This document shows positions 2 through 21,966 of a stretch of DNA of 22,252 nt, one piece after another. This DNA comes from a virus. The number at the start of each line of letters is the position of its first letter. Within the stretch, counting starts at the first letter, position 1. The notes below the pieces were generated by a model. It ran no database searches. It was not told where the DNA came from and was given only the letters and a program-made list of their open reading frames with translations. A program made the position numbers and the translations under genes. The stretch spans positions 1 through 22,252 of the IMG/VR virus record IMGVR_UViG_3300020450_001315; one strand, 5' to 3'.

Positions 2-3000
2 AATTTAGTACCTGAAGTTATTACTGGCACTACAAGTTTATCATCTGATATTTCAACCACTGACACTATAATTGAAGTTCCAAGCACAAAGGGTTTTCCT
101 TCGGAATATGGTCTTCTAAAAATAAATGATGAAATAATATCTTATACTGGAATTACATCTACATCCTTTACAGGATGTATTCGTGGTTTTAGTGGCATAA
201 CTGGTTACAATGTAGGTATATCCTCATCTCTTCTAGAAATTAATCGTGAGAGTTTAGTTTTTGAGGATACCGTTGCAAATAATCATAATACTGGTAGCAC
301 AATCACAAATTTATCAGTTTTATTTTTACAAGAATTTTATAAAAAACTTAAAAGAACATTTTTACCTGGTTTAGAGGATAATGATTTCGCTGCAAATTTA
401 GATGTTGGAAACTTTGTAAAATTTGCACGTTCTTTTTATCAGTCAAAAGGTATTGAAGAGTCTGTAAGAATATTATTCAAAGTATTATATGGTGTTGAGT
501 CTACAATTTTAGATCTTGAAGGAAATCTTATAAAACCTTCAGATGCTGAATTTATTCGTAGAGAAGTTATTGTTGCAGATTTAATTTCATCTACAGGAGA
601 TCCACAAAACTTAGTTGGGCAGACTATATTTAAATCCACAGATACATCAACTAATGCATCAGTATCTGAAGTTGAAATTTTAAAAAGAGATCAAAAAACA
701 TATTACAAAATTTCATTATTTGTTGGATTTAATGATCGTGATTTAATTGAAGGTGTTTTTACTATACCAGGTAAAACAAAAGTTCTAACTGATGTTGCAA
801 TTAATGGTGAAGTCATATCAGTTGACTCAACAGTTGGATTTGGAGCAACAGGAACTATTATTAGTGGGCAAAATAGCATTGATTATACATCTAAAACAAT
901 AAATCAATTCTTCGGATGTACAGGTGTTGGTGTTAAAATCAATACTGCTGATGATATTAGATCAGATGAAACCATTTTTGGATATGAAGATGGAGATTTA
1001 TCTAAAAGAATTGACCTTAGAATAACAGGTGTTCTTTCTGAATTGATACCTGTATCTGATATTAGTCTTACAAATGAGGGAGAAAATATTTTTGTTAAAA
1101 ATGTAGGTGAAAAAATTAAAAATCAAAATTCAACTTATAAAGAAATTTTTGCTAATTCTTGGAAATATAATACATCCTCAAGAATTCAAGTTGATATAGA
1201 AGGAACAACATATACTTTTAGAGCACCTATTGACAAATCAAATTTAAAGGTAGGAGATACATTTAATATATTAAGAAGAAACGAACAGGTTATTGAAGGC
1301 ACTGGAACTGTAAGTAGCATAGACAATAATCTAAATCAAATCACAGTTGATAATGTTGTCGGTTTTACTACAATCTCTAATCAATTATATGATATAAGAA
1401 GAGTAATTGAAACTGCATCAAGTAGTGGAGTTGAAATAGATCAAGGAAACGATGTATTAATATCAGATGTATTAAATGTTTATAGTGATGGTGAAATTGA
1501 TGGATATGTTGCTTCTAATTCACTACCAAATTATGATATTACAATTGATACAATTAAGGAAACAATTAGTGGTCAGAGTTTAGATGGAAAAGATGTTTTA
1601 ACAGACAAATATAGTTTTATTCAGTTTTCACCACCAACTAATCAAAATATAAAGTTTATACAAGGAGATGCGATTATTTACAGTCCAGCAACGGAAGTTT
1701 TATCTGGTTTAGAGTCTGGTAGAACTTATTATGTAGACCCTATAATCCCTCCTGCAGGTGCTAACATATCAAAAATAGCGTTATACCAATCACTTAGTCA
1801 AATTGGGACAGCAAGCACTGTACAAATAGGTATTGGAACAACAAGCACAGAAGATCATACTTTTATTTTTAAACCACACGCTAACAGAAAATTACAATCT
1901 GATAAAATTTTAAGAAGAATTCCTCTATCACAAAACTTATCATCATCTTCAAAAAATGAAACTCCTATCAATGATATTGGAATACTGAGAGATGGTGTTC
2001 AAATTAGATCACCGATATCTGATGATATCATTTATTATGGAAATTTAGAGTCGGTAGATGTATTAAATGGTGGTAGAGATTATGATGTAATCAATCCACC
2101 TTCAATAAGTGTTGAAAAATCATCTGGAACAAGAGCATTAGTTCAACCTGTTGTAAAAGGTAGTGTTAAAGAAATTATAGTTGATCCACAAAATTTTGAT
2201 ATTGCGTCTGTAAAAAATATCTCTATTACAGGAGGTAATGGTTCAGGATGTGTTCTACAACCTGTGGTTGGTATAAGAAATAGATCTATAGAATTTGATA
2301 GTAGAGATATATTTTTTAATGGTGGTATTGATATTAATGATGAAACAATTACATTTAAAACTGAACATAATTTAGAAAATGGTCAGTTAGTTTATTACGG
2401 TTCAAATAATAATCCACCTATAGGTATAGGTTCTGCGTATGATATAAACAATATCATCACAGGTACATTGTCAGATGGTGATCCATATTTTGTGAGAGTT
2501 GTAAATCCAACAACAGTTAGAATATTTAACAAGAAAGAAGACGCTCTAGCAGGTATAGCAGGTATTAATACAGTTGGTCTCTCTACAGATACTGGAGCTA
2601 GTGGTATACATCGTTTTAGAACTGAAAATAGAACAACCCTTATATCGGTTAAAGTTTTAGAGGAGGGATCAGGTTATACAAATCGTAAACTTAGAGTTGA
2701 ACCATCAGGTATTTCTACATCTTTTGATACAATTAATTTTGTTAATCACGGTTTTTCAAATGGTGAAATAATAGAATATTCTGCTGATAATCAAATTCAA
2801 GGATTAAGCACAACGACATCTTATCTTGTTAAAAAAATTGATAATAATACATTTAAACTTGCAAATGCAGGTATTGGTGGCACATCTACAGTAGATTATG
2901 ATAGAGAAAAATATGTTAATTTAAGTTCAACAGGAACAGGATATCAGGTATTTCAATATCCAGAAATTAAAGTTAATATTGAAGTATCTTTTGGATCAAC

Positions 3001-6000
3001 AGTTACTGGATCTTTCAATTTAACTCCTATCGTAAAAGGTGAAATAATTGATAGTTATCTTTATGAAAATGGAACTAATTATGGATCTACAATTTTAAAT
3101 CATCAAGTAAAACCAGATGTGTCTATTTTAACAGGTACGAATGGGGTGATAAAACCAATTATTGTAAATGGAAAGGTTATCAGTGCAAGTGTTGTAGGTA
3201 AAGGAGAGAATTACTTCTCTACACCCGATTTAGAAGTTAAAGATACTGGAACAGGATCAGGAGCAATTGTGAGACCTGTAGTTGAAAATGGGCAGATAAT
3301 TGATGCTATCGTTATATTTTCTGGTATAGGTTATGATGCATCAACTACAGAAATCAATGTAGTGCCAAGAGGATCTAATGGAGTTCTTGATGCAAGAGTT
3401 AGAAGTTTAAATTTAAATAGGGTAGAAAGATTTGGAGACTTTAATTTAGTATCTAGAAAAAATTCATTTGGTTTTAGTGTTCTTGGATATTCACAAAAAG
3501 TAGCTAAGACTTTAGAGAGTAGTTTCACGGTTAAAAATAATGATGATTTTAAAGAAATAACTGCTCATTCACCAATTATTGGTTGGGCATATGATGGAAA
3601 TCCAATCTATGGTCCATTTGGTTACTCTGATCCAGATAATATAAATTCTGAATTAAAAATATTATCTTCCTCATTTGTACTTGATATATCTAAAGTTAAA
3701 AATAGACCTAATGGTTTTAAAGAGGGATTTTTCATAAATGATTTCATATGTGATGGGTCAGGTGACTTAGATAAACACAATGGAAGATTTTGTAAAACAC
3801 CTGAGTTTCCAAATGGAATATATGCATATTTTGCAACTGTAGGAATATCATCAGCGACTGGAAAATTAGAGGGTAAGTATCCATACTTCTTAGGAAAAAC
3901 TTATAGATCTCCTTTAATAAATGATAATCTTATTTTAGATCATAGTTTTGATTTTAATAATTCTAATTTATTAAGAAATACATTACCATATCTTGTTGAT
4001 GAAGAATTTGGTGATAATGATTTTATTATCGAGTCAAATGAAACAATAAGACAAATCACAAAAATTGAGTCTGTTACAAAAGGTGATATTGATAACGTAA
4101 ATGTTTTAGATGGTGGAGAAGGTTATAAAGTTGGTGATTTAACTGTTTTTGATAATTTAGATACTAATGGATCTGGATTTAGTGCTAAAGTTGATGAAAT
4201 CGTTGGTATTGGTGTTTCAAGAATAGATACAGTTTTAGAAAAATTTGAAGATGCGGTATTTACATGGAAAGATAATAATAATGTTACTGCAAATGTTCTT
4301 CCTTTTTATGAATTAAATGATCAAACCTCCATATCAGTTTCTGGATTAAGTACGAGTATAGTTAATTTAACGGGATCATTTAAAGTTGGAATTTCAACTG
4401 ATACCATAGGTTTGGCAAAAACTATGGCAGTTGGAAATGCTTTGGGAGTTATTGAAGATATTTACGTTACAGATATCCCTAATACAGTTTCAATAGGTGG
4501 ATCTTTAAGAGTTGGATCTGAAATTGTAAGAGTATTAAATGTTTATGATGTAAGAAAAGTTATTAGAGTGCAGAGAAATGAGGCAGGATCAGTTGGTATT
4601 GCTCATACTTTGGGATCAAAAATTGATGTATTGAATAATCAAATTAATATTCCTGTAAAAACTAGTAAATTTGAGTCTAAAACAAATGATTTAGTTTACT
4701 TTAATGGACCTCAATCAGTCGGTGTTGGCACAACAACAGGAAGTGCAACTAGTGTCAAATATATTGTTGGAGAAATAGTTCAAGATTTATCAATACCTAC
4801 TAGAACAATACACTTACCAAATCATCCATTTGAAACTGGTCAAAAAGTTACTTTATTTAAAAATAACGGTGCAAATAGATTTGATGTAGGTAGAACACCT
4901 AATGTTGCTGAATTTAAAGTACCTCATGTTGGACAAAATTCACTTGATGTTTATATCATAAACAAAGGTGAAGATTATGTTGGCATACTTACTACAAAAG
5001 TTGGTATAGGGAGCACAAGTGAAGGTTTATTCTTCTATTCAAAAGGATCAAACTCTGGTATCTCATCAGGACTATATTATTTTTCATCTAACCATCAACA
5101 AGTAACTGGAGATATTGATAAAGTAACAACTACAGTTTTAACTAATGTTTCTGCTGCAAATACAACAACTCATAATCTTCAAGAGAGTGATATTATCAAG
5201 ATGAATGTGGTACCCAACTTATCAGTTGGTATAGGCACAACAGCACCAATTTCTGTTAATTATAATTCTGAGTATGAAAAGTTATTAATTAATCCGATTA
5301 CATTTTCAGCATCGGATGTTGAGACAAATAGAATTGATATAAGTGATCATGGTTTTGAAACTGGTGATAAAGTATTTTATGACGGAGGAGCTACTGGTTT
5401 ATCAACAGGAGATTATTATATTAATAAAATTAGCGATAGATATTTTCAACTTGCAGAAACAAAAACTGATTTAAATATAACCCCAGTCAAGATTGTTTCG
5501 ATTGCAGCAAATACTGGAGGTGCTAATCAGTCACTATCTTTAATAAATCCTAGAATTGATGTCGTAAAAAATTCCAAATTAACTTTTGGATTATCAAGCA
5601 CAACTTTATTAAACTTTGATTTTAAACTTTTTTATGATAAGAATTTAAGTAATGAATATTTAAGTTCACAAGATACAACAACTTTTAATGTAATCGGAAT
5701 TGGAACAATTGGTATTGGTACAAATAATGCTGATCCAATAGGTGCTCAACTCTCTATTCAATATTCAGAAAATACACCTGATAGATTATACTATGGTTTA
5801 TCTAAAGGTGGATATATTAGCACATCTGATACTGATGTTGAAAATTATGCAGAGATAAGATTTATTGATAGTGTTTATAATGGTGAATATAAAATATTTG
5901 ATGTTACAAATGAAACGTTTAAAATTTCACCTCTAGTTCCAGAATTTACAACTTATTTGGATACAGATTGTGAAAAATTAGAGTATAGCACAAGATCAAA

Positions 6001-9000
6001 AAATGTTCAAGGTGCAATTAAAGATTTTAAAATAATTTCACCTGGTTTTAACTACAAAAAACTACCTAAATTTAAAACAATTACTAGTGCAAATGGTAAA
6101 AATGCAAATATAGTTGCAGTATCAACATCCATAGGTAGAATTAATGATGTAAGAATTGTAGATATAGGATATGAGTATTCATCGGATAAAACACTAAGTC
6201 CAGAAGCATTCATATCACCAGTTGTAAATATTGATAATCTTGATATTATTGAAAATGTAAGAATCATAAGTGGTGGAAATAATTATATTAATGCACCAAA
6301 TTTAATTGTTTTTAATCCTGTTAGAAACGTAGTTGCTGATAATTCATCATTACAACCTATCGCACCTAACCAAACAATATCTGATGTCAAAGTTATTGCA
6401 CCTGTAACTGGTTTAGACTCCTTAAATCATCAAATTATTGCTATAAACAATTCAAATGGAATTGGAATTAACTCCGTACAATCAAGTTCATCTGGATTAG
6501 TTACTTGTTTCTTAGAAACACCTATGAATGGATTTGTTGATCCACAACCATTTGCAATAGGAGATGAAATATTTGTTGAAGGAATACAAAGAATTGGAGA
6601 AATTGGTGTTGGTGCAACTCAAGGGGGTATATCTACAAATACCACTGTTGATGGTGATGGATTTAACTCAGAAAATTATAACTATCAATTCTTTGAAATT
6701 ACTGATTATATTGCAGGTGCACAAGCAATACTTAAATTTAATTTAGCAGGTTTAACAACTAATACTGGTATTGCAAAAACATTCCAATCAGGTTATGCTT
6801 CAATTATTAATAAGTCAAATTATCCTGTAATAGAACCCATACAAACAAGGGGTGTGTTTGAATTATTTGAAACACTGATGGTTAATTCAGTTAAAACTGA
6901 TTTAACAGTTGTAGAAATAAGAGATGATTATATAAAAACTGATGGTAAATTTGAACTTAAAAAGGGAGATAGAATTAAAGGAAGATCTAGTAATGTTTCT
7001 GCTGAAGTAACAAGTCTAATTTCAAATAAAGCGAAGTTTAAAACTGATTTTTCAAACAGACAAGAGTATGGTTGGTTAGATGATATTGGAAAATTAAATG
7101 AAGATTATCAAGTAATTCCTGATAATGATTACTATCAAAATTTATCTTATACAGTTAAGAGCACAGTAGAATGGGATAAATTTGTAAATCCAGTAAATCG
7201 TCTTGTTCACCCTGCTGGATTAAAGAATTTTGCAGATACTTCAATCGAAAGTCAAGTTTCTGTTGGTATTGGAACTACTGCAATAACAAATGATTTAATA
7301 GTTCTTGATGTGCTTAATATTTTAGGTTTAGAAGAACAACAGAGAGTTGATGCAATTAACAATTTTGATTTTGTAAGAGATTATGAAACAAGAGGAAACA
7401 GTTCAAAATTTATTGAACTATCAAATAGAGTATTAACAGACTTTACAAGATGTAAATCAAATAGAGTTTTAGTTCATGATGATATAAGTGATAAGTTTTC
7501 AAGCACAGGGTTCCAAGAAAATAACACAGTTATAGAACAACTTACAGAGGATTTTGGAAATTATTTAATACAAATCGTTGATCCTGATACATCTGATGTT
7601 CAATTCTCAGAACTTATAACACTAACTACAACTGATAATGCATTTTTGCTTGAAAAAACAACTGATTTTACAACTTTAGAATTAGGTGAGTTCTCTACTG
7701 AAATCACTTCATCTGGAGAAAAAAATCTTATATTTACACCAACAGAAAAATTTACAAAAGATCATGATATTAAAATTTTAAAAATAGATTTTAATTCGGA
7801 TTTAATTGGTATTGGAACACAGGCAGTTGGGCAAGTGGATTTGGTTGGTTCAAATGTAGGAGTAGATAGTACAACTAGTGGAGTGACCACAACTACTATA
7901 GCTCAATTCCCTAATACAGATTTTAATGGTCTCTATGCAAATATTTTTGTACAAGATAGCACTACTAAAGAAATTAATTATAATGAAGTTATTGTAGATT
8001 TTGATGGAACAAAAACTACAACTTCTCAAACATATATTGATACTTCATTAGGTTTGAGTAATTCATCAGTGGGTGTAATAACTGCAAGATTTGAAAATAA
8101 TTTTATCAAATTGCAATGTGAAAATGATAGATTAAATCCACTTGAAGTTAGAGCAAACATTGTAGGATTGGGAACAACTACAACTGGAATAGGAACACAT
8201 AGATTTTTGACAATAGGTCAACCTTCTGGATCGGAGAAAAGTGCAAGATTAGAATCAAAATATGTAACTGGCACAGCAAGTCCAATAACTTATAATACAA
8301 TAAACAAAGATAATGAAAGTTCTGTTAAATCCATTGTAAGAGTGTCTTGTGGAGAAACATCTGCAATACATCAAATTATCTCTTTAAGAGACACTGACGA
8401 TGTTCTAACAGTACAATATCCGTTTGTATCTGCAGGATCGACTACTGGTATTGGTACTTTTGGTGGTGAAATATCTGGTAGTGATATTAACTTAAGATTT
8501 TATCCAGATGCTGAGTTTGACTCATTAATAGAAGTTCAATCTTTCAATCAAATATTCTATACTGATAATGATTTTTCAAACGTTCCTGGAGAATTTACAC
8601 ACGGAAGAGTGACAGAAAAATTATTCCTATCAACATACGATGGTTTAAGTGGACTAAGAGCAAACAAGACAGCATTTGATTTAAAGTATGAGGGAGTTCC
8701 AATTTACACTAAAGAGTTTGATCCCGTGGGTATCAACTCAATTGCTGATGGAGTAGGGTTATTGAAAACAACAGGTCTTTTCAATATACCAAATCACTTC
8801 TTTAACACAAACGAACAACTAACATATACACCTGGATCGACATTTGCTGGTGTAGCAGCGACTGCAGTTTCTATTGGTCAAACAACTAATACAGCAGGTA
8901 TTTTGACAACAATATTACCAAGCACTGTATTTGCAAAAGTTATTGATGAAAATCAATTTGAGTTATATACACGACCTGAATATGTCTCATCAGGTGCAGC

Positions 9001-12000
9001 GGTAACATTCACTGGTAGTGGTTCTGGTAATTTACACAAATTGTCAATGACGAAACAATTGACAAAAACTATTATTGGATTAGATGGTGTAGTTCAACAA
9101 CCTGTTACATTTACAAAAATATCTCATACATTAGGAATTTTTGATGGTTTCACACATAATAACAACATTGGAGTTGGTCTTACACAATTTATTTTAAGTG
9201 GTATAGGATCTGTTACAACTTCTGATATATTAAAAGTGAATGATGAATTTATGATTGTGACTGAAGTTGGTTTTTCAAGCACTCCAACAGGCACAATTAA
9301 CGATGCAGTAGATGTTGCATCAGGTATTGCAACATTACCTTCAGTTAAAGTAAGAAGAGGTCAACTAGGAATTCCAGCAACAACACATACTGCTGGTGTA
9401 GAAGCTAGGTTACATAGAGGATCAATCAATATTGTTGATAGCACCTTACACTTTACAGATCCTCCAAAAGGAAATACTAGGTCAAGAAGAGATGATACAA
9501 ATTTACCTTTTGTTAAAGCTGATTTTAGTGGAAGAACTTTCTTAAGAAGTGATTATACAACTAATATGTTATTTGATGATATATCAGATGACTTTACAGG
9601 AATAGGAAAAACATACAGTCTTAAAGTTGGTGGAGCAAATACCTCATCAGGCATAGGAGTTGGTAACGGAGTTCTCTTCATAAATGGAGTATTCCAAACA
9701 CCAAAAACTTTAAACAATGCAGGTAATAATTATGAATTTATAGCAGATACAACAGCAGGTATATCAACCGTTGAGTTTACTGGTATAACATCAACTAATG
9801 GTGACTTTATAGTCTCAGAATCTGATATAAATCAAAACCAAGTTCCAAGAGGTGGAATAATAGTTTCTCTAGGATCAACCTCTGGTCTTGGATATGCACC
9901 ATTACACGGAGCAAAAGTTAGAGCATTTAAAAATAACGCTGGTGGATTGACAAGCATTGTTGGTATTGGCACATCATCAGGATTTAATCTAGGTATTCAA
10001 ACTGCTGCTTATGATAATATCACAGGTATTATTACAGTCACCACTAACACTGTTCACGGTTTCGGACTAGAGAGACCTAATACTGTAAAATTAAAAAATC
10101 TAGAGTTTAGTTGTGTTGGTTATAGTGGTGTTACAACAACAATATTCCAAGATCATGAAAGACCATTATTCTTAGTTGGAATTGTATCTGATAGATCTTT
10201 CCAAGTTCAAGCAGGTCCTAGTACAATCGTTCACACTTACGTTGGTGGTGGTGAAGCTTATGAATTCTATAATGATCTCTCATTTGGATCTGGATATCGT
10301 GGTGGGTCAGTTGCGATTGGTGTAACTGATCAAGCATATGAGCATAAATTTGTAAGTTCTGGTATTGGATCAATTAAGAAAACAGCATTCTCAGGGGCAG
10401 CAAGTCAAGGATTTACTGCGACAGATGCACAATATATTTCACATACTGGTAATTTGATACTTACCATACCTAATCATACGTTTACTACAAGTGATACAGT
10501 TGGTATTGACACTGGTGGGTTAGTATTCAAATGTTCTAAAGATGATTTCTTCTCAAATCATCCTTATCCTCGTGAAGTATCTAAGACCAAAGGAGTAGCA
10601 TCTGATGGTGTAGGTGGTAAAGATCCATTTGCTGGTATACAGACTAGTGTAGATTCAACTACAACCAATACGATAACATTCTTTGTTGGACAAGGAGGTG
10701 GTGGTGGAACTGGTGCAGAAATTTCTGCTACAGTGGGAGTTGGAGGAACATTATCCTTTAATATTGTATCTGCTGGAACAAGTTATGTAAATCCAGAAAT
10801 TATAATTCCAGAACCTAATTATGATAATCTACCTGTAGTTGGTATATCAAGGTTAGGTATTGGACCGACAACAGATACTGGATCTAATTTACTTATTGAC
10901 GTTGAAGTAGGAGCATCTAAAACAACTGTTGGTATTGGTTCAACCACATTTGAAATATCTAATTTCAAAATAGCAAGACCTGGACATTCATTCAAAATTG
11001 GTGATAAATTTAAACCTGTTGGATTAGTTACTGCTGCTCATTTAACAAAACCAATCAATGAATTTGAACTTGAAGTATTAGGAATATTTAACGATAAGTT
11101 CTCTGCTTGGCAGTTTGGTGAAATAGACTTTATTGATGATATTAAAAATTTACAGGATGGTTCTAGGGTCAGATTCCCATTATTCTTTAACGGACAATTA
11201 ATTAGTTTTGAGAAAGATTCTACAAATTCACAATCTCAACTAATTGATCTAGATGCTGTTTTATTGATATTTGTCAACGGAGTTCTTCAAAAACCAGGAC
11301 AATCATATTCATTTGAGGGTGGAACTACATTTACGTTTGAAGAAGCACCTACTGGTGAAACATCACCAGGAGCGAATGATCATGATAAGGTTGATATATT
11401 CTTTTATAAGGGTAAAGATGGAGTGGATGTTGACATTGTTGACATTCAAGAAACAGTTAAAATTGGTGATGAATTAAAAATTTCAAAAAGTCCTATAGGT
11501 ATTACTACATCTCAGACAGGTGAAAGAGTTGTTAAAGAGATATTGGGTGCAGATTTAGTTGAGACAAATATCTACACTGGATTGGGTGTTGATGAAATAA
11601 ATGAAAAACCTGTTAGATGGACTAAACAAAAAGTTGATTTAATTGTAAATGGTCAAGTAATTGATAAATCTAGACCATCAATTGAACCACAAATTTACCC
11701 AACTGCAAAAATAATCGGAGACCTATCAATAGTTTCTGGAACAAATAGTGCAAATAGTATATTTGTTGACGAGGTTGAGTCATTTATTTACGAAGATGAT
11801 GTTTATGGTTTATCATCATTTGAAGTTGATGCTCTAATCACATCAGGAAAAATTAATGTTGGAGCTTCAGCGACTGCAGTTGTTTCCGCTGCTGGAACTA
11901 TATCAATCGATATAACAAATGCTGGTTCTGGATACTTATCAGCACCAAGCATTTCAATTCGTCCGCCAATTGGTTCTGGAACTACAACTGGTATAGGATC

Positions 12001-12691
12001 TACAGCGTTTGCAACAACTACCATAACAAATGGTGCAGTAACTGATACAACATTGACTGCTGTTGGATTTGGTTATACTCACTCTAATCCACCAGAGGTT
12101 CTTATAGAATTACCTTCATTCCAGACTGATAAAGTAACATCATTAGCAAATGTAGAAGGATTTACTGGTATCATAACAGGTATTGCACCAACAACTAATG
12201 GTAGTCAACCAGCGATTAAATTCTTCTTTAGATCAACAAAAAATGCATCAAGTCTTCTCGTTGGATATCCAGTCTTTATACGGGATACATCAGTTGGTCA
12301 TGGGGTAACATCAGTTGGTGGTCATAATTCATCTATAGTTGGTATTGGAACAACCTTCTTAGATAATGTTTATCAGGTAGCATCAATTACAAATATTGAT
12401 AAGGATGGTGAAATTATTTGTAATGTTGAAAATGGATCTAACCTTGCTGGTATTACAACTGAGGGTTTCCATTATCCTGCTGGAATAACAACTTCTATAT
12501 CAATGGGTCGATTAAGTTGGGGTAGATTATATAATGGAGAGCGTTCAAGTAATCCTATCTCAATAGGTGTTACTGGATTAACTGTAAATACTGGATTAAC
12601 AACATTCCCAACTATTCAAAGAAAAAATTATGATCCAACATCACATAGGGGTCTCAGATCCACTGGTGCAATTAGGGTATTTGGACTTTGA
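2..12691 (+). CDS. Giant gp7-like baseplate wedge protein with repeat-module mosaic (5' end outside window)
   Basis: The frame is open from base 2 without a stop to TGA at 12689-12691, giving 4,229 visible residues; the start lies upstream of the window. Visible residues 149-164 (KGIEESVRILFKVLYG) and 204-210 (LVGQTIF) match, from memory, the C-terminal part of T4 gp7 (KGIEASYKFLFKVLY, LVGQTIY). Residues about 2376-2412 (YYQNLSY ... W..FV....LVHPAG) resemble the later gp7 segment ending in a VHPVG motif. T4 gp7 is about 1,030 residues, so this protein is at least four times longer. The additional sequence is a YHYH domain (about 1185-1300), many GGxGY and HGF repeats, NGVxQ-P modules, and recurrent VGIGTT linkers. 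I see no signal peptide or membrane segment. In T4, gp7 is a wedge protein next to gp8 and gp10; gp8 follows here. The gp7 assignment rests on motifs and synteny; the function of the added modules (adhesion or baseplate periphery) is inference. Confidence 0.85.
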   Translation, partial: NLVPEVITGTTSLSSDISTTDTIIEVPSTKGFPSEYGLLKINDEIISYTGITSTSFTGCIRGFSGITGYNVGISSSLLEINRESLVFEDTVANNHNTGSTITNLSVLFLQEFYKKLKRTFLPGLEDNDFAANLDVGNFVKFARSFYQSKGIEESVRILFKVLYGVESTILDLEGNLIKPSDAEFIRREVIVADLISSTGDPQNLVGQTIFKSTDTSTNASVSEVEILKRDQKTYYKISLFVGFNDRDLIEGVFTIPGKTKVLTDVAINGEVISVDSTVGFGATGTIISGQNSIDYTSKTINQFFGCTGVGVKINTADDIRSDETIFGYEDGDLSKRIDLRITGVLSELIPVSDISLTNEGENIFVKNVGEKIKNQNSTYKEIFANSWKYNTSSRIQVDIEGTTYTFRAPIDKSNLKVGDTFNILRRNEQVIEGTGTVSSIDNNLNQITVDNVVGFTTISNQLYDIRRVIETASSSGVEIDQGNDVLISDVLNVYSDGEIDGYVASNSLPNYDITIDTIKETISGQSLDGKDVLTDKYSFIQFSPPTNQNIKFIQGDAIIYSPATEVLSGLESGRTYYVDPIIPPAGANISKIALYQSLSQIGTASTVQIGIGTTSTEDHTFIFKPHANRKLQSDKILRRIPLSQNLSSSSKNETPINDIGILRDGVQIRSPISDDIIYYGNLESVDVLNGGRDYDVINPPSISVEKSSGTRALVQPVVKGSVKEIIVDPQNFDIASVKNISITGGNGSGCVLQPVVGIRNRSIEFDSRDIFFNGGIDINDETITFKTEHNLENGQLVYYGSNNNPPIGIGSAYDINNIITGTLSDGDPYFVRVVNPTTVRIFNKKEDALAGIAGINTVGLSTDTGASGIHRFRTENRTTLISVKVLEEGSGYTNRKLRVEPSGISTSFDTINFVNHGFSNGEIIEYSADNQIQGLSTTTSYLVKKIDNNTFKLANAGIGGTSTVDYDREKYVNLSSTGTGYQVFQYPEIKVNIEVSFGSTVTGSFNLTPIVKGEIIDSYLYENGTNYGSTILNHQVKPDVSILTGTNGVIKPIIVNGKVISASVVGKGENYFSTPDLEVKDTGTGSGAIVRPVVENGQIIDAIVIFSGIGYDASTTEINVVPRGSNGVLDARVRSLNLNRVERFGDFNLVSRKNSFGFSVLGYSQKVAKTLESSFTVKNNDDFKEITAHSPIIGWAYDGNPIYGPFGYSDPDNINSELKILSSSFVLDISKVKNRPNGFKEGFFINDFICDGSGDLDKHNGRFCKTPEFPNGIYAYFATVGISSATGKLEGKYPYFLGKTYRSPLINDNLILDHSFDFNNSNLLRNTLPYLVDEEFGDNDFIIESNETIRQITKIESVTKGDIDNVNVLDGGEGYKVGDLTVFDNLDTNGSGFSAKVDEIVGIGVSRIDTVLEKFEDAVFTWKDNNNVTANVLPFYELNDQTSISVSGLSTSIVNLTGSFKVGISTDTIGLAKTMAVGNALGVIEDIYVTDIPNTVSIGGSLRVGSEIVRVLNVYDVRKVIRVQRNEAGSVGIAHTLGSKIDVLNNQINIPVKTSKFESKTNDLVYFNGPQSVGVGTTTGSATSVKYIVGEIVQDLSIPTRTIHLPNHPFETGQKVTLFKNNGANRFDVGRTPNVAEFKVPHVGQNSLDVYIINKGEDYVGILTTKVGIGSTSEGLFFYSKGSNSGISSGLYYFSSNHQQVTGDIDKVTTTVLTNVSAANTTTHNLQESDIIKMNVVPNLSVGIGTTAPISVNYNSEYEKLLINPITFSASDVETNRIDISDHGFETGDKVFYDGGATGLSTGDYYINKISDRYFQLAETKTDLNITPVKIVSIAANTGGANQSLSLINPRIDVVKNSKLTFGLSSTTLLNFDFKLFYDKNLSNEYLSSQDTTTFNVIGIGTIGIGTNNADPIGAQLSIQYSENTPDRLYYGLSKGGYISTSDTDVENYAEIRFIDSVYNGEYKIFDVTNETFKISPLVPEFTTYLDTDCEKLEYSTRSKNVQGAIKDFKIISPGFNYKKLPKFKTITSANGKNANIVAVSTSIGRINDVRIVDIGYEYSSDKTLSPEAFISPVVNIDNLDIIENVRIISGGNNYINAPNLIVFNPVRNVVADNSSLQPIAPNQTISDVKVIAPVTGLDSLNHQIIAINNSNGIGINSVQSSSSGLVTCFLETPMNGFVDPQPFAIGDEIFVEGIQRIGEIGVGATQGGISTNTTVDGDGFNSENYNYQFFEITDYIAGAQAILKFNLAGLTTNTGIAKTFQSGYASIINKSNYPVIEPIQTRGVFELFETLMVNSVKTDLTVVEIRDDYIKTDGKFELKKGDRIKGRSSNVSAEVTSLISNKAKFKTDFSNRQEYGWLDDIGKLNEDYQVIPDNDYYQNLSYTVKSTVEWDKFVNPVNRLVHPAGLKNFADTSIESQVSVGIGTTAITNDLIVLDVLNILGLEEQQRVDAINNFDFVRDYETRGNSSKFIELSNRVLTDFTRCKSNRVLVHDDISDKFSSTGFQENNTVIEQLTEDFGNYLIQIVDPDTSDVQFSELITLTTTDNAFLLEKTTDFTTLELGEFSTEITSSGEKNLIFTPTEKFTKDHDIKILKIDFNSDLIGIGTQAVGQVDLVGSNVGVDSTTSGVTTTTIAQFPNTDFNGLYANIFVQDSTTKEINYNEVIVDFDGTKTTTSQTYIDTSLGLSNSSVGVITARFENNFIKLQCENDRLNPLEVRANIVGLGTTTTGIGTHRFLTIGQPSGSEKSARLESKYVTGTASPITYNTINKDNESSVKSIVRVSCGETSAIHQIISLRDTDDVLTVQYPFVSAGSTTGIGTFGGEISGSDINLRFYPDAEFDSLIEVQSFNQIFYTDNDFSNVPGEFTHGRVTEKLFLSTYDGLSGLRANKTAFDLKYEGVPIYTKEFDPVGINSIADGVGLLKTTGLFNIPNHFFNTNEQLTYTPGSTFAGVAATAVSIGQTTNTAGILTTILPSTVFAKVIDENQFELYTRPEYVSSGAAVTFTGSGSGNLHKLSMTKQLTKTIIGLDGVVQQPVTFTKISHTLGIFDGFTHNNNIGVGLTQFILSGIGSVTTSDILKVNDEFMIVTEVGFSSTPTGTINDAVDVASGIATLPSVKVRRGQLGIPATTHTAGVEARLHRGSINIVDSTLHFTDPPKGNTRSRRDDTNLPFVKADFSGRTFLRSDYTTNMLFDDISDDFTGIGKTYSLKVGGANTSSGIGVGNGVLFINGVFQTPKTLNNAGNNYEFIADTTAGISTVEFTGITSTNGDFIVSESDINQNQVPRGGIIVSLGSTSGLGYAPLHGAKVRAFKNNAGGLTSIVGIGTSSGFNLGIQTAAYDNITGIITVTTNTVHGFGLERPNTVKLKNLEFSCVGYSGVTTTIFQDHERPLFLVGIVSDRSFQVQAGPSTIVHTYVGGGEAYEFYNDLSFGSGYRGGSVAIGVTDQAYEHKFVSSGIGSIKKTAFSGAASQGFTATDAQYISHTGNLILTIPNHTFTTSDTVGIDTGGLVFKCSKDDFFSNHPYPREVSKTKGVASDGVGGKDPFAGIQTSVDSTTTNTITFFVGQGGGGGTGAEISATVGVGGTLSFNIVSAGTSYVNPEIIIPEPNYDNLPVVGISRLGIGPTTDTGSNLLIDVEVGASKTTVGIGSTTFEISNFKIARPGHSFKIGDKFKPVGLVTAAHLTKPINEFELEVLGIFNDKFSAWQFGEIDFIDDIKNLQDGSRVRFPLFFNGQLISFEKDSTNSQSQLIDLDAVLLIFVNGVLQKPGQSYSFEGGTTFTFEEAPTGETSPGANDHDKVDIFFYKGKDGVDVDIVDIQETVKIGDELKISKSPIGITTSQTGERVVKEILGADLVETNIYTGLGVDEINEKPVRWTKQKVDLIVNGQVIDKSRPSIEPQIYPTAKIIGDLSIVSGTNSANSIFVDEVESFIYEDDVYGLSSFEVDALITSGKINVGASATAVVSAAGTISIDITNAGSGYLSAPSISIRPPIGSGTTTGIGSTAFATTTITNGAVTDTTLTAVGFGYTHSNPPEVLIELPSFQTDKVTSLANVEGFTGIITGIAPTTNGSQPAIKFFFRSTKNASSLLVGYPVFIRDTSVGHGVTSVGGHNSSIVGIGTTFLDNVYQVASITNIDKDGEIICNVENGSNLAGITTEGFHYPAGITTSISMGRLSWGRLYNGERSSNPISIGVTGLTVNTGLTTFPTIQRKNYDPTSHRGLRSTGAIRVFGL
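119..250 (+). repeat. 'EII.Y...RG' module, copy 1
   Basis: Visible residues about 40-75 read LKINDEIISYTGI, then CIRGFSGI. Similar units occur in the same protein near 4500-4620 (GSEIVRV ... QRNEAGS ... AHTLGS) and near 9225-9420 (NDEFMIV ... VRRGQLG ... THTAG), and in the DUF4815 protein near 20638-20750 (GEEIVSY ... LTRGKFN ... THPEGS). The pattern is a short beta hairpin with a 'feature is on / event is RG / H..G' spacing common in phage tail proteins. Its function is unknown. Confidence 0.5.
332..790 (+). other. gp7 C-terminal core, first part
   Basis: Visible residues about 110-260 of the giant protein. In order they are FYKKLKRTFLPGL, then KFARSFYQSKGIEES..ILFKVLYG, then LVGQTIF followed by a beta-rich stretch ending GVFTIPG. 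Recalled T4 gp7 has the same order: RFFESRSYDFYSTKGIEAS, FKVLY, LVGQTIYT and then a beta-rich stretch ending in LIAGQEV. This is the best anchor for the identity of the whole gene. The match is from memory, not from an alignment run. Confidence 0.75.
2048..3380 (+). repeat. Cluster of GGxGY beta-repeat modules
   Basis: This stretch has repeated units of the form 'V.VLNGG.DY...P.I.V', 'G.RALVQPVV.G.V', seen near 2048-2275, 2642-2710 and 3040-3380. Examples are VLNGGRDYD, VLEEGSGYT, YENGTNYG, VGKGENYF and FSGIGYDA, alternating with GAIVRPVVENGQI-type strands. Further copies in the same gene lie near 4088-4195 (VLDGGEGYK), 6029-6312 (ISPGFNYK, VDIGYEYS, ISGGNNYI), 10752-10815 (VSAGTSYV) and 11900-12115 (TNAGSGYL, AVGFGYTH). 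The alternation of hydrophobic strands and glycine turns suggests a stacked beta structure. No catalytic residues are apparent. Confidence 0.7.
2339..2883 (+). repeat. Two HGF-type modules (first of about seven in this gene)
   Basis: The units have the pattern 'I.F..HGF..GE.V.Y....GL...T.Y.V..I....F.LA'. Copies are seen near 2339-2560 (TEHNLENGQLVYYG, then PYFVRVVNPTTVRIF) and 2720-2883 (VNHGFSNGEIIEYS, then YLVKKIDNNTFKLA). Other copies in this gene lie near 4801-4868 (LPNHPFETGQKV), 5327-5470 (ISDHGFETGDKVFYDGG), 8777-8972 (IPNHFFNTNEQLTY), 10027-10217 (VHGFGLERPNTVKL) and 10450-10530 (IPNHTFTTSDTV). This is a familiar small beta module of tail and baseplate proteins; its binding partner is unknown. 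Confidence 0.65.
3545..3910 (+). other. YHYH domain inside the giant baseplate protein
   Basis: Visible residues about 1182-1303 carry HSPIIGWAYDGNPIYGPFGY, then D.HNGRFCKTPEFPNGIYAYF, then YPYFLGK. These are the hallmarks of the YHYH family (Pfam YHYH protein), which also occurs as a free-standing secreted protein in bacteria and inside structural proteins of marine T4-like phages. The conserved His, Tyr, Asp and Glu residues suggest a bound metal or a structural core, but no activity is established for the family to my knowledge. It is flanked by GGxGY modules on the left and repeat-rich sequence on the right. Confidence 0.8.
7124..7234 (+). other. gp7-like second part (HPAG motif)
   Basis: Visible residues about 2375-2412 read DYYQNLSYTVKS, W..FVNPVNRLVHPAGLKNF. 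The T4 gp7 C-terminus, as I recall it, has ...SSRW...VIRFVHPVGFGF in the same relative order, about 100 residues after LVGQTIY. Here the distance from LVGQTIF is about 2,170 residues, so the core appears to be split by a very large insertion. Similar YYQ..SY...S......W...V....HPAG motifs occur in several marine phage structural proteins, so an independent HPAG module is an alternative reading. Confidence 0.55.
9067..11430 (+). repeat. NGVxQ-P modules (three copies)
   Basis: Three units contain a short 'hydrophobic-NGV.Q.P' hairpin: near 9082-9110 (GLDGVVQQPVTF), near 9668-9710 (VLFINGVFQTPKTL, preceded by DDISDDFTGIGKTYSL) and near 11257-11410 (LIFVNGVLQKPGQSY, followed by GGTTFTFEEAP and VDIFFYKGKDGVDV). 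This beta module is frequent in tail fibre and baseplate proteins of T4-like phages; T4 gp10 has a comparable RFNGILQ hairpin as I recall it. It suggests that the right half of the giant protein is fibre-like or exposed on the baseplate rim. Confidence 0.55.
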
Positions 12692-14332: not shown

Positions 14333-17300
14333 ATGTCACAGAAGACTAACTTAAATATATCACCTTATTATGATGATTTTAATAAGGATAAAAACTTTTA
14401 CAAGGTTCTATTCAAACCTGGATTTCCTGTACAGGCAAGAGAATTAACTGGTTTACAGTCTATTTTACAAAATCAAGTTGAATCATTTGGAAAACATATA
14501 TTTAAAGAAGGTTCAATGGTCATACCTGGTGGTATTGAATATGATCCAACTTATTTCTCGGCAAAAGTTAATGCAACTCATTTAGGAGTCGATGTCTCTA
14601 TCTACTTAAGTAATATAATAGCTAATAATAATGGAAAAGGAACAAGAGTTAGAGGTCAAAGTTCAGGTATAGTTGCAACTATTAAAAACTTTATTTTACC
14701 TCCAGAGGAAGGTGTAGATGATATAACAATTTTTATTAAGTATAATCAATCTGGAACAAGTGGAGAGGGCACCGCATTCCCAGATGGTGAAATATTAATT
14801 CTTGAAGACAATGTAACTTATGGTAACACAACTTTAAATATTGAAGAAACTGTATTAACCCTTGTATCTGAAGATGCAACTGCCACAGGATCTGCATTTG
14901 GTGTTAACAAAGGTGTTTACTTTATGCGTGGTGCTTTTGTTGATGTGCCAACTTCTCAAATAATTTTAGATCCTTACTCAAATACTCCATCTTATAGAGT
15001 TGGATTTGAGGTATTAGAAGAAATTGTTAATGCAAATGATGACTCTTCATTATATGATAACGCAAAAGGATTTACAAACTTTGCAGCACCAGGTGCGGAT
15101 AGATTTAAAATTACAGTAAAACTTACTAAAAAAGATTTACAAGATTATCAGGATACTAATTTCGTAGAATTATTCAGAATAAATGAGGGTCAAACTAAAA
15201 AATTACAAGATTCTACTGTATATTCTGAAATAAAAAAATATTTTGCAACAAGAACATTCGATGAATCAGGTAATTATGCAGTTGAACCATTTCGTGTAAC
15301 AACTCAAGATTCATTAAATGATGAAATTGGGTCAGGTGGATTATACACAGAAAATCAAGTAACAGATAAGGGAAATATACCAAATGATGATTTAATGTGT
15401 GTGAAATTGTCACCAGGTAAAGCATATGTTAGAGGTTTTGATGTTTCTTTACCAGGCACAACTGTGATAGATGTTGAAAAACCAAGATCTACAAAAACAA
15501 TAAAGAATGCGTCTATTCCATTCTCAATGGGTAGTTTAATTAAAGTAAATAATGTTACTGGTGCACCCAAGATTAGTCTAGGTGGAGATGAAACAAATGT
15601 TGTTCAATTAAGAAATCAAAGAGTTGGTACTAATAAGTCATCAGCACAAGGATTACAAGTTGGAGAAGCAAGAGTTTATTCCTTTGGTCTTGCTGATGCT
15701 TCATATTCAGGGGCAACAACACCTTGGGATCTACATTTATATGATATTCAAACATTTACGATATTAAAATGCACTGATATTAATATAAGTCTTATACAGG
15801 GAGAAAAGGTTAGAGGTTTAGCAAGTGGAGCGATTGGATATCTTGCTAAAAATCGTGATGCAACAGGTGTAAATGAAATTTGCTTATCACAAACAACTGG
15901 TAAATTTATAGATGGTGAAGAAATTATATTTAATGAAAGACCTAGCGTTGCAAGAACATCAATTAAAAAAGTTATAACATTTACAATTGATGATGTAAAA
16001 TCAATATTTCAAAATGTATCTGGTTATCCTACTTTCAATGCAGATACTGTTCTTTATGATCGTGTTTTACCAAATTTTTCATTAACAGATGAACTAAACG
16101 TAGTTGGAACTGCAGCAAGTGTTGCAAATAGAAGTTTTGCAGGAGTTGGAATTAATACTAATACTATTATCGCATATAATAAAGGTAATTATCAAGATCC
16201 AACATTTAATGAAATCTCTGATATTTCTAATGATGGAAAAATATTAACTTTATCGGCAACAACAAATGTCGTTGGTGTGAGTACAGGAAGTGTATCTTCA
16301 ACTTCATCTACTTTTAGAATAAAAGTTCCAAGAGTGTTGAATATTAAAGATTCTGGTATATTTTCAAAATTACCAAGAAAAATTATCTCAAATGTTGATA
16401 CTTCAAACTCTAATTTGATTATTAGTAGACAAATCAATAATCAAACAGTTTCAGGTGGATCTTTAACAATCAATTCTCAAGCAGGATTAGATGCTAGTGT
16501 TGGTGTTTCAAGTGCCTTCTTTGAACCATTTGATGCCGAAAAATATTCAATTCATTATGATAATGGTTTAGTAGAAACACTAACAGCAGATCAAGTATCA
16601 GTTGATAATTCAGATAATGATGTAACATTTAGTGGATTATCACAACCTTCAGCAACTTCAGTAACAGTTAATGTTACTATGAAAAAAGTAGGAGCCTCAA
16701 GTAAATCAAAAGATTATGTAAGAAGTCAGCAACTTGAAGTCACAAGAACAGTTGGTATATCTACATTAACAAGTTTACTAGTACCAAGTAATGCTTATGG
16801 ATTAAGAGTTGAAGATAGAGAAATTTCACTTAATGTGCCAGATGTATCTAAAATTATTGCTGTATTTGAGTCAAAAACAACTGCTGCTCCGACATTAGAT
16901 ACTTTGACATTTGTATCTGGTTTATCGCTTAACACAAATGGTATACTTGGAGAGAAAATAGTTGGTAAAGATAGTAGAGCAGTAGGACAAATTGTAGAAA
17001 TACCAAATGCAACTGAAATTAAATTTGTTTATCTGAATGCGAACAAATTCATTATAGGTGAAGATGTTCATTTTAAAGAATCTGGTGGTCAGTATATATT
17101 ACAAGGATCAGAAGCAGGTAATTTTACTGATCGAACAAATGATTACGTTTTAGATAAAGGTCATAAGGCACAGTATTGTGATTATTCTAAAGTTGTAAGA
17201 AGAGCAAAAGTAGGTGCTCCATCTAAAAGATTGTTAATTGTTTTTGATCAATATCAAGTAGCGAGTGGAAATAGTGGTGACTTTTATTCAGTTAATTCAT

Positions 17301-20300
17301 ACACGAAGGAGAGATATTCAAGGGATATTCCTTTGATAGTAGGAAATAGGGCAACAGATATTATTGATTTAAGACCAAGAGTAAAACCATTTACTATAAG
17401 TAATGAGAATGTTTCACCGTTCTCTTTCACTGCAAGAGAATTTGAGTCAACAAATCCATATGTTGTTACACCAAATGAAAGTTCAATATTAGGGTACAGT
17501 TATTACTTACCTAGAATTGATAAACTAGTAATTAATCAATATGAAGAAGTTAAATTAATAAAAGGTGAACCATCTGAGGAACCATCAGTTCCAAATGAAG
17601 AAGGTAACTCTATGGAGATTGCCGAAATAGCTTTACCTCCATATCTTTTTGACACAGTTAGATCTCCAAATATCAAACTATTTGAAAATAAGAGATTTAC
17701 GATGAGAGATATCGGTGCTCTAGAGAAAAGGATTGAAAATTTAGAATTGACTACAACTTTGAGTGCATTAGAACTTAATGCTCAATCATTACAAGTAAGA
17801 GATGCTGATGGATTGGATAGATTTAAAACTGGATTTGTTGTCAATAACTTCTCAGATAGAAACTTTATTGATTTTACACCTGAGACAGGATCTAGGTGTG
17901 ATGTTGATGTAGTGGGTCAAGAATTGATAAGTGCTACAGATTTTTGGTCTATCAATCCAGAGTTAGCTTTAAATCCTGCTATTGATGTTAATAGTGCTGA
18001 CCTTAATTCAAATTTACAACTTTTAGATACAAATTGTAAAAAAACAGGTGATTTAATAACATTAAATTATACAGAAGTTGATTGGTTAACACAACCACAA
18101 TCAACTGAAGCGGAAAATGTAAACCCATTTAATGTTATTGTGTTTATGGGTGGTATCATTTTAGATCCACCATCAGATAATTGGGTAAGAACAATTTACA
18201 CAAATAATAGTAGACTTGAATCTTCTGGTGCTCAATGGGCTGAGGTTGCAAATGATGAGATATTAGGACCATCAATTGAAAGTGCAACTAGTGATTTTCG
18301 TGAAACTGGTAGAGATGTGCAGGATCCTCAATTTCAATGTTATAGACGTAGAAGAAAAGTAATTCAAAGAGTTTATAGACAGGATCAGAAGATTAGGAGA
18401 ACATTTACAAACGTATTACAAGGTCCTAGTCATGAATTTGATTACGTTGAAAGTATTAAGTTAACGACTGAAGCTGATCCATTTATGCGTTCACGAAATG
18501 TTTACTTTAACGCAAATGGATTAAGACCTAATACAAAACACTTCCATTACCTTGATAATGGAGTTCCTGACATATTCCCTAAACTTATTGAAATTAATAT
18601 GGTTTCAGGAACATTCAATGTTTTTGAAGATATAAACATTGAAATAGATGGTACACAGATAGGATTTGCAAGAGTACAACAACCTAATCACAAATTTGGG
18701 GATACATCAAGACCTGATGTTGGTGCAGGATTAGGATCTCCATCAGTTCTTGTAGAAAAATACACAGTGGATCCTTTTGATACATCAAGACCAGCACCAT
18801 CAGAGACATATTCAGCAACCTCTAAGTTACTTAATATTGATACAATATCTTTAGCTAATAATGAAAAATATTTTGGTTTCATTAATAAAGGTGCTAAAAT
18901 TGTAGGAGAAAGTAGTGGTGCTGTTGCTACTGTTAGTAGTATTGATCTATTCAGTGATAATTGGGGTGATTTATTAGGAGCATTCTTCTTTAGAGATGCG
19001 AATAAAACACCAAAACCACCTACACTCTTTGCAACAGGCACAAAAACATTCAGAGTCACATCCGCTCCAGAGGGCACTATACCCGTTCCTGGTAGCACAG
19101 ATCACTCTAGTGATGCATCTGGTACATTTACAGGCACAGGTACTATTCAAACTCAAATACAGAGTAATGTACAGGTAAGAAATCCACCCGCACCTTCAGG
19201 AACTCGTCCTAGTGAGATAATTACAAGAACTAATTTACTCTACAAAGAGGAATTAGGTGAGAAATTCATAGCTCCTCATAGAGATCCATTAGCACAATCA
19301 TTTACTGTTGATGAAACAGGTGCATTCTTAACTTCATTTGATGTCTTCTTTAAATCAAAAGATGAGAAAGCAAAACTATTTGTTGAATTAAGATATGTAG
19401 AATTAGGAACTCCAACAAAATATCTTGTTCAAAATTATGCACAAATTGCAATTAATCCAAGTAACATCAATGTGTCTGATGATGCGTCTATACCAACCAC
19501 TTTAAATTTCCCATCACCAATCTATCTTGAACCTGAAAAAGAGTATGCTTTAGTATTCTTAGCACCATCTTCTGATAAGTATGAGATGTGGGTTGCCACA
19601 ATGGGTCAAAAAACAGTTGGAACAACGAATTTACCAGACGTTGAAAATGTTGTTGTCACAAAACAATATATTGGTGGAAGTTTATTTAAATCTCAAAATG
19701 GTACAATATGGACAGCAAGTCAGTATCAAGATCTAACATTTAAATTACGTAAAGCAGCATTCGTTAATTCAGGAACTGCTACTTTCTATAATACTTTAAT
19801 TGAAGCAGGAAATCTGAATACACAAGTGTTACCCGATAATCCAATACGTGTTTTACCAAGAAAATTAATTGTTAAATGTTCTGGTGCTCCTCAAAGTGAT
19901 TTCCCAATTGGAAAAAAAGTAAGTACTGACAATGGAACTAATTCTGCAGCAGGAAATGAAGATTTATTTGTAATAGGTATTATTGAAGGTAGAGGTGCTG
20001 CAATTAGTTCAGCTACAACTTTTGAAATAGTTTCTAATGGTGCTGGATATTCAGTTACTAACTCCAATAATATTCCACTTATATCTTTAACAGGTAGTGG
20101 AACAGGAGCTCAGTGTTCAGTTTCAGTTGATACAACTACTGGTGCGATAAATTCAATATCAAACTTAACAACTGGATCAGGATATCAAGTGGGTGAAGTT
20201 TTAACTGTTGACAATTCAGATGTTAAGGTCACAAGAGGTGCTGGATTTAAAGTAGTGGTAACTGCGATTAGTAGCACTGCTGATACTTTATTCTTAACTG

Positions 20301-21766: not shown

Positions 21767-21966
21767 TACCAGTAGAAGGTCATAAAAATCTTTTTCGTGA
21801 TGAAAAAACAGGTGCCATAGTTAATATGGATTCTAATGGATATTCTAATTATATTTCCAATAAGAGAAGAAATTCTGATAAGCAAGCAGAATTGGATGAA
21901 ATGAAAAGTGAGATTGAGACACTAAAATCTATGTTAAAAGAACTTGCTTCAAAGATAACAACATAG
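21763..21966 (+). CDS. Small conserved coiled-coil protein of marine T4-like phages
   Basis: This 67-residue protein starts at an ATG overlapping the preceding stop by ATGA (21763-21766), a sign of translational coupling with the DUF4815 gene. Its N-terminal half (IPVEGHKNLFRDEKTGAIVN) is of a type I recognise as recurring in T4-like cyanophages near structural genes. The C-terminal part, about residues 38-64, is a charged heptad helix (LDEMKSEIETLKSMLKELA) predicted to form a coiled coil. The protein has no known function. Position and coupling suggest it assists assembly of, or is part of, the tail or neck. It could alternatively be a chaperone-like factor for the giant protein. Confidence 0.8.
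   Translation: MIPVEGHKNLFRDEKTGAIVNMDSNGYSNYISNKRRNSDKQAELDEMKSEIETLKSMLKELASKITT

Follow-up and report, generated by a model that had tools for sequence, protein, structure and literature searches.

The stretch of DNA analysed here, called the window throughout, is an IMG/VR virus record of 22,252 bases (G000). From position 2 to 12,691 of its + strand runs a frame of 4,229 codons without an internal stop, open at its 5' end, followed by gp8 and by a 2,477-residue protein (Table 1). A small ORF at 21763-21966 (67 aa) matches PHROG 473, a virion structural protein. A reading made from the sequence alone had claimed one stop-free frame of 12.7 kb with its start beyond the window, and a related contig (L004) bears this out: there the same frame begins with an ATG, just 3' of a gp6 ORF. 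Residue 61 of the L004 protein corresponds to residue 1 in the window, so that L004 supplies the 60 absent N-terminal residues and the full protein is about 4,289 aa long. The two proteins share an identity of 0.94-1.00 in eleven 300-residue tiles (residues 1-3300).

Table 1. Genes and mapped features of the window (residues are those of the giant frame, counted from the first one present)
Feature	Residues	Position	Strand	Remarks
gp7 (baseplate wedge) gene		2..12691	+	5' end beyond window; 4,229 residues present, ~4,289 full; PHROG 2885 over residues 1-4208
Anchor 1	138-240	413..721	+	conserved gp7 core; equivalent to T4 gp7 ~727-814
Internal insertion	241-2353	722..7060	+	absent from T4 gp7; in a compact relative, insertion within the equivalent of T4 765-853
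Fastest-evolving stretch	901-1200	2702..3601	+	median dN/dS 0.20-0.30 vs tile median 0.14
YHYH domain (PF14240)	1187-1282	3560..3847	+	Pfam 8.9e-24
Anchor 2	2354-2417	7061..7252	+	second core segment; strong match to compact gp7s, weak to T4 gp7 ~864-896
C-terminal extension	2418-4229	7253..12688	+	S-CREM2 gp7 (1,937 aa) stops shortly 3' of anchor 2
C-type module 1	3335-3413	10004..10240	+	profile match
Extra-module site	~3372	10118..10120	+	~105-108 extra residues in 3/8 related contigs (G001, G005, G008)
C-type module 2	3476-3570	10427..10711	+	profile match
gp8	531 aa	12734..14329	+	two GxGY repeat units; Pfam Phage-Gp8 5.3e-14; PHROG 438
2,477-aa protein		14333..21766	+	DUF4815 / PHROG 358; gene here labelled VrlC or VriC in phiN3, S-T4, S-SRM01, HTVC008M (position label only)

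Homology and gene order show that the giant frame encodes gp7, the baseplate wedge protein, of a marine cyanophage of the P-SSM2 type. Nearly its whole length (residues 1-4208) matches PHROG 2885, 'baseplate wedge subunit' (profile positions 63-4178 of 4179, E 0), and residues 1-2733 match 465 of 50,697 phage records, whose names begin with Synechococcus (374), Cyanophage (61), Prochlorococcus (24) or Marine (6). Identity to P-SSM2 gp7 is 52% across window residues 1-2721. In L004 the genes directly upstream are gp25 and gp6 (Pfam GPW_gp25, 4.7e-11; Gp6-like, 5.6e-16) and in the window the gene downstream is gp8, which places the frame in the gp7 slot of the order gp25-gp6-gp7-gp8. The sequence-only reading had called gp7 by motif and synteny, with gp8 as its right neighbour, and was correct on both counts.

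The relationship to T4 gp7 emerges from profiles. Nine cyanophage N-cores taken together matched T4 727-813 with an E-value of 1.4e-6, while ten controls (eight other T4 tail proteins, a shuffled and a reversed gp7) gave 0.19-0.89. The corresponding profile of the compact gp7s of phages Cr30, pf16 and phiN3 matched T4 644-825 at 5.5e-8, and cyanophage and compact profiles matched each other at both anchor 1 (1.2e-19) and anchor 2 (5.8e-14); in these comparisons the compact gp7s bridge cyanophage gp7 and T4 gp7. When a profile of 35 compact gp7s, drawn from 86 fetched loci, was compared with PDB chains, the two distinct sequences found at E <= 1 were both gp7 (4.5e-6 and 2.5e-4). Pfam Baseplate_wedge (PF23786) is likewise matched by all 35 at E <= 0.01, with the first member scoring under the cut-off; the window protein scores 17 bits against a curated cut-off of 27, and 20.1 bits with the L004 N-terminus. 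Searched by phmmer as a single sequence, the window reached a T4-like gp7 at E 0.048.

Anchor 2 is homologous mainly through the compact gp7s. Its cyanophage profile matches T4 gp7 weakly (probability 7%, E 0.0049 compared with 0.059 for the best control), the profile of three compact gp7s gave no T4 gp7 match at the expected place (E 0.18 at T4 714-742; the control gp6 was better, at 0.055), and phmmer with window positions 6800-8000, the anchor 2 region, returned only chance-level matches to PDB sequences (E 0.27 and 0.57). The profile check suggested for the two anchor regions came out clearly for the first and weakly, as far as T4 itself is concerned, for the second. Likewise, the gp7 signature that had been placed at the left end of the frame is present there, but what it matches is the C-terminal third of T4 gp7 and not the T4 start.

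These alignments allow the protein to be mapped. The gp7 core, which corresponds to T4 ~640-900, comprises about 250 residues and includes both anchors; these lie ~30-50 residues apart in T4 and ~2,100 apart here (residues 240 and 2354). Growth is seen at three sites. In the N-terminal helical region ~100 residues have been added that are missing from Cr30, pf16 and phiN3; between the anchors there are ~2,100 more, which contain GxGY repeats and the YHYH domain; and anchor 2 is followed by ~1,800, which include tandem modules of variable copy number. On a T4-like gp7 (9f4a) the sequence profile continues without interruption as far as residue 841, which suggests an insertion site near that residue. 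Cr30 (Caulobacter phage, 767 aa), pf16 (Pseudomonas phage, 523 aa) and phiN3 (Sinorhizobium phage, 1,006 aa) carry both anchors in the same order, but their internal insertion is far smaller and anchor 2 is followed by no more than ~110 residues. A closed gp7 frame, 529-1,278 codons long, was found in 43 of the 44 loci examined (86 fetched) from uncultured relatives of Cr30 and pf16. The accessible part of the pf16 paper (PMC5587285) yielded nothing on pf16 gp7.

T4 gp7, with 1,032 aa (the ~1,030 quoted earlier was accurate), is related to the window protein in its core, clearly at anchor 1 and weakly at anchor 2 (5iv5). It differs in having an N-terminal part of ~640 residues and in lacking the inserted modules, the YHYH domain and the C-terminal array. 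The start of cyanophage gp7 aligns, via the compact gp7s, with T4 ~644; BLAST against T4 gp7 1-640 gave no convincing match (best E 0.34), and a counterpart of these first ~640 residues is not detectable in the window gp7. Because T4 1-640 has no detectable counterpart and the additions lie elsewhere, the same small core appears to have been enlarged differently in T4 and in cyanophages. We considered and rejected the description of the window protein as T4 gp7 plus extra, for the same two reasons. No insertion map of a giant gp7 was found in the literature searched, which included few subscription journals.

When gp7 was compared with its own sequence by BLAST, nothing but the full-length match came up at E <= 0.01, so repeats were sought by profiles; at the DNA level, no tandem repeats were found inside the window. 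Of 14 isolate gp7s compared, 9 contain the YHYH segment; those of T4, Cr30, pf16 and phiN3 lack it, and S-CRM01 matches only a repeat before it. A second element, the GxGY unit of ~30 residues, occurs 9 times in the window gp7, 18 times in that of S-SZBM1 and 18 times in the 5,495 Syn9 residues examined, and not at all in T4 gp7 or in the compact gp7 of pf16. The 30-position model behind these counts found nothing in 6/6 shuffled or reversed sequences or in 6/6 T4 proteins; it also gave no match in the DUF4815 protein, though a similar GxGY stretch is visible there by eye. Outside gp7 the unit was found twice in the window gp8 and four times in P-SSM2 gp14 (L002 37659-39071). Its occurrence in cyanophage gp7, gp8 and gp14 and absence from their T4 counterparts point to modules common to several virion proteins.

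A third element, the C-type module (82 model positions), has two matches in the window and 11, some fragmentary, in P-SSM2 gp7. The latter protein (PSSM2_111, YP_214343.1, PHROG 2885) has the same gene position and layout as ours, with an identity of ~52% up to residue ~3,490 and of 50% in the final ~740 residues. It is longer, and its surplus falls at window residue ~3488, where its C-module matches lie. On a smaller scale, the extra residues at ~3372 in G001, the record behind L004, were read out as an additional tandem module. This module of ~108 residues (in L292) is present or absent between viruses that are near-identical over residues 1-3300. As judged from these alignments, gain and loss of tandem modules account for part of the gp7 length variation among relatives.

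A frame of this length might be an artefact, adjacent genes having been fused through assembly or sequencing error. In keeping with that idea, one of eight related contigs (G008, behind L007; L298) has a break in the gp7 frame near window residue 3763-3777, through sequencing error or a real split, and the gp7 match in S-SKS1 is split into four pieces. In the other seven contigs, however, the frame is single and unbroken for 4,292-4,470 codons from stop to stop, and it lacks internal stops in the isolates P-SSM2, Bellamy, S-CAM7, ACG-2014f, S-T4 and S-SRM01. Since independent isolates share the same unbroken frame, we regard fusion as exceedingly improbable and reject it. In the S-SKS1 record itself (L084 11814-18811) gp7 is mostly unannotated, and its matching in pieces suggests frame errors there.

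Selection also speaks for one coding frame. Against P-SSM2 gp7, dN/dS was 0.16-0.53 in 14/14 scored 300-residue tiles (the last 29 residues, below the tile minimum, were unscored). Across 32 relatives (32 of 80 loci, 10-32 per tile) its median was 0.06-0.30 in every one of the 36 covered 100-residue tiles, which span residues 1-3600; columns in which local identity was under 0.35 were omitted, as were comparisons at dS <= 0.05. All scored or covered tiles are under purifying selection, and because dN/dS is low in all of them a chance open frame is excluded. Positive selection by dN/dS was not seen in the 36 covered tiles of residues 1-3600. Even the fastest-evolving stretch, at ~1.4 to 2.2 times the median tile, remains under purifying selection.

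The size of the protein, first presented as growth of a T4 gp7-like protein to more than 4,229 residues, is ordinary for this family: giant cyanophage gp7s of 3,500-6,619 residues are already in public records. Genes in the gp7 slot encode 5,195 aa in P-SSM2, ~6,076 in Syn9, 4,749 in S-T4, 4,314 in S-CAM7, 4,225 in ACG-2014f, 4,067 in Bellamy, 3,895 in S-SRM01, 3,533 in ACG-2014h and 6,619 in S-SZBM1, with smaller gp7s in S-CREM2 (1,937 aa) and S-CRM01 (1,454 aa). The S-SZBM1 protein (S-SZBM1_208, 'baseplate wedge initiator') likewise lies directly 3' of gp25 and gp6. The segment matching window residues 6-66 is found at its residues 813-874, indicating that more has been inserted near its N-terminus, and the C-module has no match in it. 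S-CREM2 gp7 contains both anchors and ends soon after the second.

Relatives of this protein have been detected in virus particles. According to the accessible portions of the two reports, mass spectrometry of S-SZBM1 virions detected S-SZBM1_208 (6,619 aa, 724 kDa) by 71 peptides at 13.5% coverage (PMC9146016), and ORF122 of S-CREM2 (1,937 aa) was found in virions by 91 unique peptides at 27.2% coverage (PMC10665884). The search for gp7 peptides proposed by the sequence-only reading thus has a positive answer for these relatives and none for the window virus. The S-SZBM1 report also detects S-SZBM1_203 (2,446 aa) in virions (PMC9146016), which is likely the counterpart of the 2,477-aa DUF4815 protein, as judged only by size and label. 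Exceptionally large proteins of S-PM2d are described as acquiring mutations during coexistence with the host (PMC9910659); gp7 may be one of them.

Predicted structures offer a further view of the core and of one insertion. For a compact gp7 of 761 aa (L112), T4 gp7 (5iv5_BJ) was the best of 350,542 chains and the sole one at E <= 0.001 (Foldseek E 1e-4), with TM-scores of only 0.09 and 0.07 and from a model of low confidence (pLDDT 61.5, pTM 0.41; residues 1-130 at 35-57). A second structural comparison with T4 gp7 gave Z 7.5 over 89 residues at 2.9 A, with unrelated chains at 7.2, and concerns this low-confidence model of a compact relative. In it the counterpart of T4 765-853 is spread out between residues 134 and 689, so that here too modules are inserted inside this region. 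The segment of window residues 960-1330, which includes the YHYH domain, was modelled from 64 sequences, the window's own and those of 63 loci out of 106 fetched, as a beta-rich structure with a mean pLDDT of 78.0. None of its 92 PDB matches at E <= 10 (Foldseek) reached 0.001; a second look at 528 chains gave a best Z of 3.7, mostly to Ig-like sheets at model residues 83-165, and no YHYH-titled entry stands among the structural matches listed. With no PDB match at E <= 0.001, the model shows no adhesive fold; the gp7 modules may have an adhesive or fibre-like function, as the sequence-only reading suggested, but the support for it is indirect.

These results bear on a published view of the tail. 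According to one passage of PMC7029224, pelagi- and cyanomyophages lack T4 gp7, for which VrlC is the apparent substitute; on that view the giant frame would be a VrlC protein in the place of a missing gp7, and the gp7-slot gene of ACG-2014h does carry the label VrlC. Against this stand the core homology to T4 gp7, found with profiles and in the match of the low-confidence compact-gp7 model, and the gene order of HTVC008M. In that phage the gene between gp6 and gp8 (I899_gp055, L305 33435-36485, 1,016 aa) contains a match to the N-core of a compact gp7 (5e-11), and a different gene, located past gp8, is VrlC. DUF4815 / PHROG 358 has no match in the giant frame at E <= 0.1 and is found in the neighbour at 14333-21766. 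Given the core homology and the HTVC008M gene order, we consider a VrlC identity for the frame very improbable and reject it.

Labels vary among the records concerned. In ACG-2014h (L089 13590-24191; 26165 onward) they look swapped, the gene in the gp6-gp8 slot being named VrlC and the one after gp8 gp7 wedge initiator. I899_gp055 of HTVC008M is labelled 'head closure Hc2', a name probably owed to GxGY repeats of the kind also present in gp14.

We propose that the protein is probably a gp7 wedge protein whose beta-rich inserted modules form a bulky baseplate periphery, that this periphery may serve in host binding or in the docking of other proteins, and that tandem module gain and loss partly set its length. 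One gp7 copy per wedge would pair with two gp6, as in T4, to give the wedge scaffold, from which the inserted beta-rich modules would project as the bulky periphery; in binding the host or docking other proteins, this periphery may partly replace the T4 peripheral proteins gp10, gp11 and gp12. Cyanophage gp7 would in this way retain its wedge role, with peripheral modules built in at one internal and one C-terminal site. As far as the available text of the report goes, the cyanomyovirus genomes known in 2010 lacked wac, g10, g11, g12, g34, g35 and g37 (PMC2984593). The window part of gp7 has a mass of 456 kDa, against 119 kDa for T4 gp7, and six copies, if assembled, would amount to 2.7 MDa (6 x 456 kDa), ~2.0 MDa above T4, a figure conditional on copy number and intactness. 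A large extra structure round the baseplate is accordingly plausible, dependent on copy number and on the protein being intact.

A simpler machine may serve as a precedent for docking. In the sections available, the gp7 orthologue of XM1 (242 residues) is described as making a (gp16)2-gp17 scaffold and holding spikes through an internal loop (80-106) and its C-terminus (201-242) (PMC10457771); similarly, TssK trimers are held by two TssG loops (PMC6300606). By analogy, spike holding in XM1 may be viewed as a docking precedent for the gp7 modules.

How active the periphery would be is a separate matter. It is possible, if somewhat doubtful, that the modules act passively, as a scaffold or hoop by which the baseplate is enlarged or stabilised, and that host binding is left to other proteins such as the DUF4815 protein and fibres. 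Purifying selection across all covered tiles is consistent with such a role, as are the YHYH-segment model's matches only to common Ig-like sheets (best Z 3.7) and the presence of very large neighbouring proteins that could do the binding. However, change is most rapid in a single inserted block that extends up to the YHYH domain, and the module array varies between near-identical contigs, both of which fit exposed, changeable material. A bolder form of our proposal, which we rate as unlikely, makes the giant gp7 itself the host-binding skirt of the cyanophage baseplate: modules that contact the receptor would be an in-line part of the wedge scaffold, at positions like those used for docking separate spikes in simpler machines, and tandem gain and loss would tune how many of them there are.

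An improbable alternative is that gp7 is a precursor, cut after translation to yield a wedge gp7 on the one hand and fibre or adhesin fragments on the other. The published detections, as far as reported in the texts cited above, are peptide counts with 13.5% and 27.2% coverage and not intact masses, which would suit such processing. Anchor 2, however, sits ~2,100 residues past anchor 1, and because of this distance a cut within the insertion would divide the gp7 core.

For the gp7 wedge protein with built-in modules that we favour, the analysis provides a map of which ~250 residues correspond to gp7 and where the added material enters, and this map indicates that the same small core was enlarged at different places in T4 and in cyanophages. 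It further shows near-identical viruses differing by one module, and the evidence counters the printed claim, as worded in the passage cited, that cyano- and pelagimyophages lack gp7 (PMC7029224). Defined gp7 segments are now available for studying host binding in abundant ocean viruses. If the giant gp7 does act as a host-binding skirt, host range in these phages would evolve within a core structural protein and not in detachable fibres.
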